Below are positions 2-3,473 of a stretch of 14,458 nt of DNA, piece by piece (positions within the stretch are counted from its first letter, which is position 1; each line of letters begins with the position of its first letter). Position numbers and translations under genes: made by a program. The notes under the pieces were generated by a model. The model saw nothing but the letters and a program-made list of their open reading frames with translations, did no database searches and was not told where the DNA came from. Origin of the DNA: Candidatus Roizmanbacteria bacterium CG06_land_8_20_14_3_00_34_14 (lineage in GTDB: Bacteria > Patescibacteriota > Microgenomatia > UBA1406 > GWC2-37-13); NCBI GenBank assembly GCA_002779665.1, contig PEVZ01000018.1:18367-32824 (forward strand), read 5' to 3'.

Positions 2-154
2 AAGAAAAAAGGAAATGAAGTTGTTAGAAAAAGAACAAGTGCGCATTTTTTTGATTCAATGAAAATTTTTTATAATAAGCATTATTCTCAAAATCACTGG
101 TGGCTAATAAATAAGCTTGTTTTTTTGGCTATAGATTATAAAAAAAATCAATGA
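2..154 (+). CDS. Glycosyltransferase family 2, C-terminal end (5' partial)
   Basis: An open frame enters from the left edge and ends at the TGA at 152-154, which overlaps the ATG of the next gene by 4 bases. About 50 residues are visible. The stretch with RTSAHFFDSMKIFYNKHYSQ is the kind of C-terminal tail found on GT2 rhamnosyl- or WcaA-like transferases, where a basic segment precedes a short amphipathic or membrane-associated helix (here WWLINKLVFLAIDYKKNQ). The catalytic domain lies outside the window, so the family rests on the tail and on the neighbouring glycosyltransferases. Translational coupling to the GT4 gene places it in the same polysaccharide operon. The sugar donor cannot be told. 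Confidence 0.6.
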   Translation, partial: KKKGNEVVRKRTSAHFFDSMKIFYNKHYSQNHWWLINKLVFLAIDYKKNQ

Positions 155-1248
155 AAAAAATCGGGATAGATGCAAGATTATATTCTCAAACCGGAGTCGG
201 AACTTACTTAAAAAACTTAATTTATTATTTGGAAAAAAAAGAATTAAAAAACGAGCTGTTTTATATATATTTATTGCCAAGTGATTATGACAGTGTTTTT
301 TTTACGAATAAAAATATTATAAAAAGAAAAGTAAATTTTCGTTGGCATTCTTTAGGAGAACAATTAGGTTTCCCAATAAAACTTTATCAGGATCAATTAG
401 ATCTCATGCATTTTACCTATTTTAGTTACCCCGTATTTTATTTAAGGAAGTTTATAGCTACCGTTCATGACGTTACTCCCTTATTATTTAAGACCGGTAA
501 GGCGTCGACAAAAAATCAATTTATATATAAAATAAAACATTTATTTTTTCGAATTATTCTCTGGTGTCAAATTAATAGGGCGGTAAAGATTATTACTCCA
601 ACTGAAACTGTAAAAAATCAGTTAGAAAATATTTACGGAAAAAAAATATCAGAAAAAATTATCCCGATCTATGAGGGGGTTAATTATCAGATTAAAGATG
701 TAGTGGAAAATTCCAAATTAGCTAAAAAATATCATAATTTTTTTATTTATGTAGGTAATTTTTATCCTCACAAGAATGTTGAAAAGTTAATCCAAGCTTT
801 CTCAAAGGTTAAAGCAGATACAAGATTACTTCTTTTAGGACCGAAGGGTTATTTTTCAGATAAAATACTTCGATGTATCGATACATCGAAGTCTAATAAA
901 ATAGAACTATTTACAAATCCAAAATTAAATGAATTAGTATTTTTTTATAAAAATGCCAAGGCGTTAATTCATCCATCTTTATCTGAAGGTTTTGGTTTAC
1001 CATTAATCGAAGCAGCTTATTTTAATTGCCCAATTATTGCTTCAGAAATAGTGGTTTTTAAGGAACTTCTTGGAAAAAACTATCTATCATTTAATCCAAA
1101 TAACGTTGAAGATATCACGGACAAAATAAATAAATTTATTAAAAATAAACCAAAATTTGATTATAAAAATTTAATCAATAAATATTCGTTTGAAAAAATG
1201 GCCGAGAAAACAATAGAGATATATAAGAATGTTCTTGATGATAATTAA
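151..1248 (+). CDS. Glycosyltransferase family 4 (GT-B fold)
   Basis: The 365-residue protein has the two-Rossmann layout of GT4 enzymes. The N-terminal acceptor domain opens with GIDARLYSQTGVGTYLKNL (residues 5-23), a typical GT4 start with a glycine-rich loop, and has HDVTP at 106-110. The donor domain begins near IYVGNFYPHKNVEKLIQAF (199-217) and carries the E-x7-E nucleotide-sugar signature EGFGLPLIE at 279-287. It probably transfers a hexose, perhaps mannose, to a lipid-linked glycan at the inner face of the membrane; the sugar is inferred from nearby GDP-mannose synthesis. The start overlaps the upstream stop by 4 bases and has no Shine-Dalgarno. Oddity: residues 239-248 (ILRCIDTSKS) are encoded by a perfect 26-bp palindrome that recurs between genes at 1848-1879. 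The region still matches the usual GT4 length by eye, so the gene appears functional. Confidence 0.9.
   Translation: MKKIGIDARLYSQTGVGTYLKNLIYYLEKKELKNELFYIYLLPSDYDSVFFTNKNIIKRKVNFRWHSLGEQLGFPIKLYQDQLDLMHFTYFSYPVFYLRKFIATVHDVTPLLFKTGKASTKNQFIYKIKHLFFRIILWCQINRAVKIITPTETVKNQLENIYGKKISEKIIPIYEGVNYQIKDVVENSKLAKKYHNFFIYVGNFYPHKNVEKLIQAFSKVKADTRLLLLGPKGYFSDKILRCIDTSKSNKIELFTNPKLNELVFFYKNAKALIHPSLSEGFGLPLIEAAYFNCPIIASEIVVFKELLGKNYLSFNPNNVEDITDKINKFIKNKPKFDYKNLINKYSFEKMAEKTIEIYKNVLDDN
864..892. repeat. Perfect palindrome inside a GT4 gene, copy 1
   Basis: Bases 867-892 form a perfect 26-bp palindrome with half-site ACTTCGATGTATC and its exact reverse complement. The 29 bases 864-892 are identical to 1848-1876. 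This copy lies in frame within the donor domain of the GT4 gene and encodes ILRCIDTSKS. As RNA it could form a long hairpin with a UCGA loop inside the coding sequence. The duplication and symmetry are read directly; the role is unknown. Confidence 0.9.
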
Positions 1249-1399
1249 CCCTACATTGCAGTAATTTATTAAATTATATTTAGCCTCAGATGTATTAGTG
1301 TATATATCGATAAAAATATATTGTCAAAATAGTCTAAAAAGATACTTCTGTAGGTTATAAGCGGTTGACAAACTTTATAGCTAATAATATCTTCTTATC
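1249..1399. other. Intergenic region, AT-rich, holding a promoter
   Basis: These 151 bases separate the GT4 gene from the TrpR-like gene. No ORF, tRNA or strong terminator hairpin is visible after the GT4 stop at 1246-1248. The only clear signals are a TTGACA at 1365-1370 and one TATCGATA core at 1305-1312, which matches the centre of the long palindrome but lacks its arms. Confidence 0.6.
1365..1393 (+). promoter_or_regulatory. Predicted sigma70-type promoter of the TrpR-like gene
   Basis: A consensus -35 TTGACA (1365-1370) is followed after 17 bases by TATCTT (1388-1393), a 4/6 match to the -10 consensus. The ATG at 1400 starts 6 bases after this hexamer, so the transcript would begin at or very near the start codon. 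An alternative -10, TAATAT at 1385-1390, gives a poor 14-base spacer. Confidence 0.45.
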
Positions 1400-1846
1400 A
1401 TGGCGCAAATATCTAAAAGATATGTAGATCGAACTTTGATATCAAGAATTGAAGAATTACTTCTTGATTTGTTGCTTAATTTAGCGGACAAAAAAGAGGT
1501 AAATAATGTTTTGAACGAACTTTTAACACCAACAGAAAAGACGATGATTACGAAAAGAGTGGCTTGTTTTTATCTTTTGATTAAGAATATTCCAATTCAT
1601 GAAATAGAAGATACTTTAAAAATATCTACATCAACTGTAGCTTATTTTAAACATTTTCTTGATCGTTCAGAAGTAATAAAGAAATATCTATCTAACAAGC
1701 TAAAAAATGACAAATTGAAACATTTAATAGAAGATATTTTTGTAGATTTATTTTATGGGACGTTAAAGAAAGGTTCTAATTGGTCAGAAGACAAAAGGAT
1801 ATTTTATCAACATCAACGCAAACGTCAACAACCCATGAATAGATAA
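1400..1846 (+). CDS. TrpR/YerC-like helix-turn-helix DNA-binding protein
   Basis: The 148-residue, mostly helical protein matches the Trp-repressor-like superfamily (TrpR, YerC/YecD). LLTPTEKTMITKRVACFYLL (41-60) is the hallmark helix pair, and the helix-turn-helix follows at IPIHEIEDTLKISTSTVAYF (64-83). The basic C-terminal tail after about residue 95 has no recognised domain. It probably binds DNA as a dimer; nothing in the sequence indicates tryptophan binding. It is the first gene of the interrupting region, has its own promoter and apparently a leaderless start. It lies between the two copies of a perfect palindrome, one starting 2 bases past its stop, which makes that palindrome a candidate operator; this is inference. 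The gene could be regulatory for the cassette or simply a passenger. Confidence 0.75.
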   Translation: MAQISKRYVDRTLISRIEELLLDLLLNLADKKEVNNVLNELLTPTEKTMITKRVACFYLLIKNIPIHEIEDTLKISTSTVAYFKHFLDRSEVIKKYLSNKLKNDKLKHLIEDIFVDLFYGTLKKGSNWSEDKRIFYQHQRKRQQPMNR

Positions 1847-1847
1847 C

Positions 1848-1879
1848 AATACTTCGATGTATCGATACATCGAAGTATT
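1848..1879. repeat. Perfect 32-bp palindrome between convergent genes, copy 2
   Basis: The half-site runs AATACTTCGATGTATC and its exact reverse complement follows. The inner 26 bases equal the palindrome inside the GT4 gene at 867-892. It sits between the TrpR-like gene (+) and the membrane protein gene (-). As RNA it forms a 14-bp stem with a UCGA loop on either strand, followed by only weak U-richness, so it could act as a bidirectional terminator, a protein-binding site, or a dispersed palindromic element. Confidence 0.9.
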
Positions 1880-1903: not shown

Positions 1904-2551
1904 TTAAGATTTTTGATTGTAATTAAACCAATAAGTAGCATTAAAAATAAGATAAAAAAGTAGATGAATGCTATCAGTTATGAATACAAATCCACCTAAA
2001 ATCATATAACCAAAAATGATTGCCATAGGAATACTCAAAGCAGTGTAAAATAGAGCCCATTTTTTATTCATAAAAAACAGGTTTCCTAAATGAATTATGA
2101 TAATAATCAAAGTAAATAAAAATATAATAGTAATTTTTTGTGAACCACTCAAAACTACAAAAAGTAAAAATAAAAATGTTGCTTGCTGAAATAAAACCTC
2201 AAAATACTTAACTGTCATTGATGGTAATTCGAACCTTACCATAAAACGATCATTATTTTTTTTGTCTTTCAAATATAAAGAAGGATACTTACCATAATGA
2301 CGAATTATCTTAGGAAAAGTAAACCAAATTAAGGTGATTATTATAAAAAGACCAGTAGTTATGTAATTTACTGTAATTAATAATTTTTTATAATTACTAC
2401 CTAAAAGCACAAGTGAAGATATTACAAATATTAAAGATAATGATATTATTCGACCCCAACTTGTTTTATCAAAAGCTCTACCTTTATAAGCAACATTAGC
2501 AATTGCTAAAACTAAAAGGAGAAAAAGCGTTCTTAAAAATATAATAGACAT
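1904..2551 (-). CDS. Polytopic membrane protein, possibly CPBP-like
   Basis: This minus-strand gene encodes about 215 residues from the ATG at 2549-2551. A GTG at 2585-2587 would add 12 residues that look less natural in front of the first membrane helix, so the ATG is preferred. Hydrophobicity suggests six or seven membrane segments. A loop near residues 78-112 (KIIRHYGKYPSLYLKDKKNN...) is polar. I do not firmly recognise the family. The order E118 in YFEVLFQQ, H154 in IIHLGNLFF and H196 in DSIHLLFYL, spaced 36 and 42 residues apart, resembles the E...H...H layout of CPBP (formerly Abi) intramembrane proteases, but the classical EExxxR is not intact. It is divergent from the DUF3800 gene, with an operator-like repeat in the shared gap, and convergent with the TrpR-like gene. 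Confidence 0.7.
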   Translation of the reverse strand: MSIIFLRTLFLLLVLAIANVAYKGRAFDKTSWGRIISLSLIFVISSLVLLGSNYKKLLITVNYITTGLFIIITLIWFTFPKIIRHYGKYPSLYLKDKKNNDRFMVRFELPSMTVKYFEVLFQQATFLFLLFVVLSGSQKITIIFLFTLIIIIIHLGNLFFMNKKWALFYTALSIPMAIIFGYMILGGFVFITDSIHLLFYLIFNATYWFNYNQKS

Positions 2552-2593
2552 ATTATTTATAAATTTATTCGATAAATTATATAACACAAATAG

Positions 2594-2672: not shown

Positions 2673-3422
2673 ATGAAAAAAGAATTTTTTAATTATATTT
2701 TTTTAGATGAATCAGGTAAGCCAGAGGTTTATTCTTCAAAGGGAATTAATTTAGTTGAAAATAATTCGGCTTCAAAATTTTTAGTTATTGCCACAGTCAG
2801 GGTAGCAGACCAATTACGACTTCAACAAAAAGTGATGGAATTTAGACTTTCGTTATTAAAGGATGAAAAATTGAAAAAAATATTTTCATCAGCATACACA
2901 TTAGATTCATTTCATGCTCAAACTGACTATGAAGAAGTTAAAAAGAAATTTTATGGATTTATAAACACTTTGAATATTAAAATCGACGTATTAGTAGTTG
3001 AAAAATTAAAATGTTATTCTGTATTACAGCAAAGACCGGGAAAACTGTATGAGGTAATAGCAGGTCAACTACTTAAAAATATTTGTCATCAATCCAAGAA
3101 TACCGAGATAATTTTTTCCAGAAAAGATAGTAAATTAAAATTAAGACAAGAACTTGAAACGAAAGTAGAAAGGGTTCGTCTAGGATATTTAGAGAAACAT
3201 AAAAGTATTAATCATGGACTATCATTAATATATTTTCATAATCCTCATTATAGTCATGGAGGGCTTCAAGTGGCAGATTACGTTGCTTACTCTATTTTTC
3301 AAGTTTATGAAAACAATAGAAACGAATGGTATCTTTTGATTAAAGACAAAATAGGAAAGATTCAGGATATATGTAACAAAAAATACTTTACTCGGAGCAA
3401 TCCGCTCAAACTATCCACTTAA
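2673..3422 (+). CDS. DUF3800 domain protein (predicted RNase H-like fold)
   Basis: The 249-residue protein fits DUF3800. It opens with YIFLDESG (8-15; D12, E13), has SFHAQTD at 79-85, an FSRKDSK segment at 148-154 where the family usually has an acidic/basic motif, and ends the core with GLQVADYVAYSIF (197-209; D202). The family is predicted to have a ribonuclease H-like nuclease fold and turns up near mobile elements and defence genes; its activity is not settled. An in-frame TTG at 2631 would add 14 residues, but the ATG at 2673 sits just before the conserved strand and is preferred. The last 12 codons (YFTRSNPLKLST, from 3384) lie in the left arm of a 23-bp inverted repeat, so the tail may derive from that repeat. 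It is divergent from the membrane protein gene. Confidence 0.8.
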   Translation: MKKEFFNYIFLDESGKPEVYSSKGINLVENNSASKFLVIATVRVADQLRLQQKVMEFRLSLLKDEKLKKIFSSAYTLDSFHAQTDYEEVKKKFYGFINTLNIKIDVLVVEKLKCYSVLQQRPGKLYEVIAGQLLKNICHQSKNTEIIFSRKDSKLKLRQELETKVERVRLGYLEKHKSINHGLSLIYFHNPHYSHGGLQVADYVAYSIFQVYENNRNEWYLLIKDKIGKIQDICNKKYFTRSNPLKLST

Positions 3423-3473
3423 GGAAGTGCGAACTTCGCACGTTTTATTAAGCGAACTGCTCAGAGTAAAGTA
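3384..3473. repeat. Imperfect 23-bp inverted repeat around the DUF3800 stop
   Basis: Arms at 3384-3406 and 3451-3473 pair at 20 of 23 positions; the outer ten pairs (TACTTTACTC / GAGTAAAGTA) are perfect. The 44-base interior carries a nested perfect palindrome at 3427-3441. The left arm is coding and contains the end of the DUF3800 gene. The structure could be an RNA hairpin, a terminator, or the end of a mobile element; no transposase is near. Confidence 0.8.
3427..3449 (+). terminator. Possible weak intrinsic terminator after the DUF3800 gene
   Basis: The palindrome GTGCGAA-C-TTCGCAC (3427-3441) folds into a 6-bp stem with a 3-base loop and is followed by GTTTTATT. The U-tract is short, so termination would be weak unless the larger flanking hairpin also takes part. 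Confidence 0.35.

Follow-up and report, generated by a model that had tools for sequence, protein, structure and literature searches.

DNA uptake sequences are lineage-specific words that arise in place inside genes; they are non-palindromic and number hundreds to thousands per genome. The parS, matS and Noc sites are palindromic, amount to about ten per genome, lie in genes as well as in gaps and also arise in place. Rickettsia palindromic elements (RPEs) are inserted and lengthen proteins.

RPEs are described as dispersed and in frame inside unrelated genes (PMC3733652, PMC6649704), and a discussion of Nematomorpha has the Rickettsia elements losing repeat identity over time (PMC6649704). 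The mitochondrial genes of Nematomorpha carry perfect inverted repeats of which both arms code conserved protein and which are gained and lost between species; these coding palindromes are long, up to 284 bp, and template switching has been proposed as a possible cause (PMC6649704). REP elements are palindromes of 20-40 bp that form several families, some of them inside genes (PMC3733652; PMC8266576), and most known REP families are tagged with GTAG or CGTC and are chiefly intergenic (PMC3733652). In PARCELs, dyad-symmetric coding sequence specifies amphipathic segments, arranged as tandem repeats of 25 residues in special proteins (PMC2996958), and the parS site is the subject of PMC4368675. 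Judged by title or the start of the abstract, none of the papers listed by our literature searches treats words of the kind reported below in Patescibacteria.

We analysed a stretch of 14,458 nucleotides (the window) from a draft Candidatus Roizmanbacteria genome (G000; 784,847 bases in 72 contigs, 82.57% complete). Bases 864-892 and 1848-1876 are identical over 29 positions and contain a perfect 26-bp palindrome (family A), whose exact matches at 867-892 and 1851-1876 bear out the coordinates of an earlier note made from the sequence alone. That note considered a chance repeat not credible; when the window was shuffled 200 times with dinucleotides preserved, no shuffle held two family A matches (mean 0.00 at up to 3 mismatches). 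It also placed the first copy in frame in a GT4 gene as ILRCIDTSKS, which agrees with residues 239-248 of ORF 151-1248, and the second between genes, which we locate in the gap between an ORF at 1400-1846 (+) and a convergent ORF at 1904-2587 (-). The features are as follows.

151..1248, + strand: GT4-type glycosyltransferase gene with copy 1 (Pfam PF00534, PF13692, PF13439).
867..892, no strand: palindrome copy 1 (family A), in frame in GT4 and encoding LRCIDTSK, from exact match and orthologue codon alignment.
1289..1310, no strand: probable remnant of a third site, ahead of the gene for the TrpR-like protein, read from gap sequences set side by side.
1400..1846, + strand: gene of a TrpR-like protein, adjoining copy 2 (PF01371).
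1848..1879, no strand: 32-bp perfect palindrome between convergent genes, containing palindrome copy 2 (family A, 1851-1876).
1904..2587, - strand: convergent ORF bordering the copy 2 gap, with no Pfam family at E 0.001.

Copy 2 has a counterpart at the same place in G013, in G016 with one mismatch and in G007 in a changed form. The gap upstream of the TrpR-like gene holds GATGTATCGATACATC in G016 and G014 and a partly decayed form in G007, and the window's own 1289..1310 is probably a decayed third palindrome site. The TrpR-like protein was set aside as a partner of the palindrome because the GT4 loci of G014 and G015, which were the loci searched, gave no match to it. At the place of this gene, behind GT4, G014 has a match to the Y1 transposases (L089 and L103, G014:C23). 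Elsewhere in the window, positions 3384-3473 form an inverted repeat with 26-nt arms that are 85% complementary and 38 nt apart, spanning the end of a DUF3800 ORF.

Beyond the window, genomes of the Roizmanbacteria type (Patescibacteria) carry scattered hairpin words, mostly of 26 or 18 bp, with a few families peculiar to each lineage. These words occur in many copies, mostly genic in G000; they lie in place at most tested sites, families are exchanged at single sites and symmetry is kept. At up to 3 mismatches G000 holds nine family A copies, of which six are exact, two have 1 and 2 mismatches respectively and one is interrupted by Ns, against no match to a reversed control sequence; Sua5 has a weaker tenth copy, mismatched once in the core. 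Judged from reading frame and neighbouring genes, eight of the ten are in genes, namely GT4, RecG, UvrD-like, Fmt, another GT, NNRD, PMT-like (cut by Ns and named after its G013 relative) and Sua5, and two are in gaps. Across 144 genomes, 14 match the A 24-mer within 3 mismatches (G000 counted; nine of the 14 in its genus), and the 16-bp core is found within 1 mismatch in 10 of the 20 genus genomes. In named genomes, exact copies fall on 13 contigs, whose titles give Roizmanbacteria, Gottesmanbacteria or Patescibacteria group, and an exact search of viral contigs returned no match to A or B. Counting in the genome and its relatives bears out the earlier note on dispersal over genes and gaps, a feature shared with RPEs. 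Palindrome pairs less than 2 kb apart are commoner than under random placement, both in G000 (simulated p 0.019) and in G016 (p 0.005); the simulation handles every genome as a single line, and the excess does not discriminate between hypotheses.

Whether the words were added to genes or replaced native sequence was examined in codon alignments of orthologues (31 rows for the window GT4, 102 for six other genes). With or without a word, the palindrome site is gap-free in 16/16 orthologues of Fmt, 18/18 of Sua5 and 15/15 of PheS, and in 17 of 18 NNRD orthologues, the exception being G003, which is 7 codons shorter. QueA is gap-free in 13 of 16, two rows carrying another 9-codon element and one being without one residue. 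Among the 19 MurC rows, G016, G013, G007 and G014 are of equal length although G014 is without the word, and the others are about 3 codons longer. Many GT4 rows are equal in length, with differences of 1 to 4 residues in some and a shortfall of 7 codons in two; here the codon alignment sides with the earlier note, which suggested that the palindrome may have replaced native GT4 sequence. Against solved structures (two alignments listed per protein), QueA and PheS align without a gap at the site in both cases and Sua5 in one, lacking two residues in the other. Within the NNRD site the two alignments open gaps of two residues and of one, and at the word RecG exceeds its structures by about two and by five to six residues. 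The codon alignments do reveal true insertions in QueA of G005 and G014 (9 codons) and MurC of G008 (7 codons). Equal length across the palindrome site is therefore firmly established for PheS, Sua5, QueA and, inside the genus, Fmt, and well supported for NNRD within the genus; small additions are conceivable at the NNRD and RecG words, RecG being the less clear case. For the gap-free sites this answers whether the words were inserted or took the place of native sequence. At the aligned sites named, both arms code native protein with no added length, as in the Nematomorpha repeats.

In MurC of G008 (L168), a 7-codon LPAGRQG element interrupts an F-type palindrome at its centre, and a related 22-bp palindrome, ACCTGCCTGCCGGCAGGCAGGT, occurs in four other retrieved places. 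In QueA of G005 and G014 (L239 and L243), the palindrome site has an inserted element of 9 codons (around EGPPSLKLRR) next to it.

A search with fixed outer arms (ACTTCRNT/ANYGAAGT) and a free inner length of 0 to 16 bases gave 111 matches in the 20 genus genomes, against 9 for the reversed control, with at most 17 matches of these ACTTC-arm families per genome. Among the 75 matches listed, 28 are 18 bp and 37 are 26 bp long; all 37 of the latter have 4 or 5 of 5 inner pairs, 29 of them 5, where 0.17% would be expected to have 5 under an assumed base composition, and the perfect inner sequences are of five distinct kinds. At 10 orthologous coding sites that share A (28 copy pairs), 632 of 672 positions of the 24-bp palindrome are identical (94%), compared with 1533 of 2352 (65%) in the flanks, compared ungapped. 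Arm identity is kept while bases change: in G007, CGATG/CATCG has become CAATG/CATTG on both arms at GT4, Sua5, MurC and the gap behind the TrpR-like gene, and further two-sided changes are seen in G007 (CTTTG/CAAAG) and G062 (GTTCG/CGAAC). One-sided changes also occur, many of them in G016.

The families other than A include B (ACTTCATTATATTAATATAATGAAGT), G (TGTACAGTTGATTAATCAACTGTACA), D (ACTTCGATTAAACGTTTAATCGAAGT) and an 18-mer (ACTTCGATTAATCGAAGT), and orthologous sites hold different families in related genomes. The GT4 site has A in G000, G005, G013 and G016 (one mispair), an A derivative in G007, B in G015, and G in G006 and in G035, which belongs to another genus. At the Fmt site we found A in G000, the 18-mer in G005 and G009, and D in G006, G008, G017 (one mispair) and G067, again of another genus. 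QueA has A in G016 (one mispair) and G062, B in G019 and G017 (one mispair), E in G015 and an F type in G004 and G008; PheS has an A type in G016 and G014, D in G006 and G017 and the 18-mer in G005. The GT1 site carries A in G016 and G013, the 18-mer in G017 and a palindromic (CGAT)n run in G007; the GTb site (another GT) carries A in G000 and G013 and a B variant in G009; and the site in a TP_methylase gene, which we take to be RsmI, carries B in G014 and an imperfect F type in G006. Words of 18 and 26 bp thus occupy the same sites in Fmt, PheS and GT1 with length unchanged. The earlier note had also offered a genome-wide binding site: the dispersal stands, but a single site fits poorly with several families and two lengths that share sites.

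Words are repeated within genomes as well, with B exact four times and E three times (in G015 and G007, respectively), the 18-mer eight times and an F type three times in G005, and G exact twice, or three times within one mismatch, in G006. G067 holds eight exact D words, seven of which fall within ORFs and one of which is at the Fmt site, and four families (A, B, E and G) coexist in G015. At L147, L266, L294 and L295, different palindrome families lie less than 1 kb apart, in the same ORF at L147, L294 and L295. Word-bearing status is uneven, sites being filled in some relatives and empty in others. Among orthologues without A at six sites, 16 of 86 show at least 10 of 12 pairs at the site versus 19 of 6424 other places in the same genes, and 5 of 86 show 12 of 12 versus 1 of 6424, the 86 orthologues coming from related, non-independent genomes.

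Read directly, A leaves three frames open, the 18-mer two, and B, D, E, F and G one each. In ORFs of at least 100 codons, family G reads VQ-I-QL in 11/11 places and B reads LHYIN in the 9 of 23 listed places that lie in such ORFs, while 7 of the 9 D-type places of G067 are in ORFs, all reading TSIKRLIE. Such uniformity of frame is the expected remainder of purifying selection against stops, and a protein-level cause is unnecessary.

The reading that we favour, with not quite an even chance of being right, is that hairpin words are written in place, spread by copying from arm to arm and from locus to locus, and maintain themselves. A process acting on DNA hairpins would copy one arm onto the other, and family words might pass between loci by template switching or conversion, perhaps driven by a postulated trans-acting protein. 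Native codons would be overwritten and nothing inserted; proteins may tolerate the word where an amphipathic surface helix can be coded, and the words could be self-maintaining passengers for which a host function is unnecessary. Copying would explain why D has multiplied in G067 and why sites are filled unevenly, and we count the concerted two-arm change at four G007 loci in its favour. The six E 26-mers listed share one asymmetric centre, in either orientation, which argues for copying since a symmetric binding site would not require it; this argument is weakened by a fully symmetric E relative (L278). Against copying, equal length is reached more easily by point substitution under selection, sites outlast their flanks across genomes in the manner of a functional site, MurC and GT4 vary in local length from clade to clade, and the copying enzyme remains hypothetical. 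Furthermore, Sua5 of G015 keeps an A core while G015 has no other core within 1 mismatch, so that no donor is visible. The broader claim, that a genome-writing process in Patescibacteria overwrites coding DNA with lineage-specific hairpin words and rewrites these words in frame at equal length, is possible, with the balance leaning against it.

Below copying we place selection on functional DNA sites, a somewhat unlikely explanation in which the words would be putative sites under base-by-base selection for one or more chromosome-binding proteins whose specificity shifts between lineages, on the model of parS, matS or Noc sites. Selection on a DNA site would account for equal length and for the long persistence of the words, and the in-place origin, the excess of palindrome over flank identity at orthologous sites and the dialect change shared by the G007 loci are all consistent with it. 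The mispairs of A copies on the coding strand (A-C 14, G-U 8, other 7, two of these being Ns; five Sua5 orthologues supply 16 of the 29) bear no sign of a constraint on mRNA pairing, which also fits selection at the DNA level. It is harder to reconcile with several families in one genome, as in G015, with words of 18 and 26 bp at the same sites, with the asymmetry of the usual E centre and with sites filled in some relatives and not in others. The ParB-family model TIGR00180 matched weakly in 28 of 37 genomes, with no match above the cut-off.

Mobilisation of the words as REP elements by RAYT (TnpA-REP, Y1) transposases appears quite improbable from the sequences. The words are short dispersed hairpins with a conserved foot, which is REP anatomy, and they co-occur with Y1 genes: at least two Y1 genes are found in 13 of 14 genus genomes with at least three motif matches (the fourteenth, G012, has three, none a perfect palindrome) versus 0 of 6 with fewer (Fisher p 1.8e-4, ignoring kinship). 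Y1 and motif counts correlate over 72 family genomes (Spearman 0.49; control motif 0.12) and over the 52 outside the genus (0.43), both with kinship ignored, and G067, with its eight exact D words, has the most Y1 matches of the 72 (8). Outside the genus, however, at least two Y1 genes occur in 5/5 word-rich genomes versus 24/47 with few matches (Fisher p 0.059), and G061 has seven Y1 matches but one motif match. Sixty Y1 loci were retrieved, and 52 of them yielded an ORF (the wrong one in one case, IS200-like in two); the hairpins listed for these 52 up to about 260 bp from the gene include no CTTC-type word, so cognate copies do not flank the Y1 genes there. The Y1 genes are often flanked by other hairpins (TAGGGTC..., GGTCCGTCC..., CACCC..., ACCTCGGAGGT...). 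The nearest cases are an E relative (L278) about 350 bp behind a Y1 ORF of G015, in the next gene, and a Y1 match about 200 bp from an A-like word in G014, where G016 has the same word in the same gap. By reading, the ends of A, B, D, E, F, G and the 18-mer have neither a GTAG nor a CGTC tag, and a B variant, CTAC...GTAG, resembles the REP tag. Insertion would moreover add length. With co-occurrence found and adjacency not seen at the retrieved loci, RAYT mobilisation is a weak rival only.

Several RAYT types coexist in these small genomes, many with a flanking hairpin of their own (L271-L290, L327-L366). RecG of G000 (L003, at about 2224 and two further places) repeats VETQNFASLQ, or close forms of it, so that the protein has three copies; the DNA of one copy forms a perfect palindrome of 28 bp that includes TAGAGACGCAAAATTTTGCGTCTCTA and reads as REP type.

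That the words are mRNA hairpins selected for expression control is very improbable: six words folded with DNA parameters gave stable hairpins well below shuffled sequences and many copies lie inside ORFs, but G-U mispairs show no excess over A-C on the coding strand (8 vs 14) and several copies lie in gaps. The chance that they are inserted selfish elements like RPEs, a likeness drawn in the earlier note, is next to negligible: they are dispersed, palindromic and in frame in many genes, and at the word RecG and NNRD exceed the listed structures by a few residues, but in-frame length is not added at Fmt, PheS, Sua5 or within-genus NNRD, the orthologue alignments do show true insertions of other elements elsewhere (QueA, MurC), and insertion is rejected at gap-free sites because orthologues are equal in length, RecG being less clear.

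Dispersed repeats are usually understood as inserted, whereas here identical words replace native codons at many loci. The presence of different words at one site in related genomes is unlike known inserted repeats, and at Fmt and GT4 this exchange of families crosses genera. Either an overwriting copy process is at work, the reading that we prefer, or housekeeping genes hold strongly selected DNA sites whose specificity changes fast; both bear on how small genomes change proteins.

Compared with known systems, the words resemble DNA uptake dialects in being lineage-specific and inside genes, but they are palindromic and, at no more than 17 ACTTC-arm matches in any of the 20 genus genomes, fall short of the hundreds of copies typical of uptake sequences. 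With PARCELs they share dyad-symmetric coding sequence and an amphipathic segment, and they differ as single words in ordinary genes. Like RPEs, they are dispersed palindromes in frame in unrelated genes; unlike them, they add no length at most tested sites and largely keep their symmetry. They are short palindromes of several families, some genic, as REP elements are, but their foot is usually ACTTC, and different hairpins accompany the Y1 genes at the loci retrieved. About ten palindromes per genome, genic and intergenic and arising in place, recall parS, matS and Noc sites, from which they differ in that several families and two lengths share sites and no ParB-family match lies above the cut-off. 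Finally, coding arms, symmetry and gain or loss between species are common to these words and the Nematomorpha palindromes; set against the latter, as far as the available portion of PMC6649704 describes them, the Patescibacteria words are short and identical over many genes, and their families replace one another at one site.
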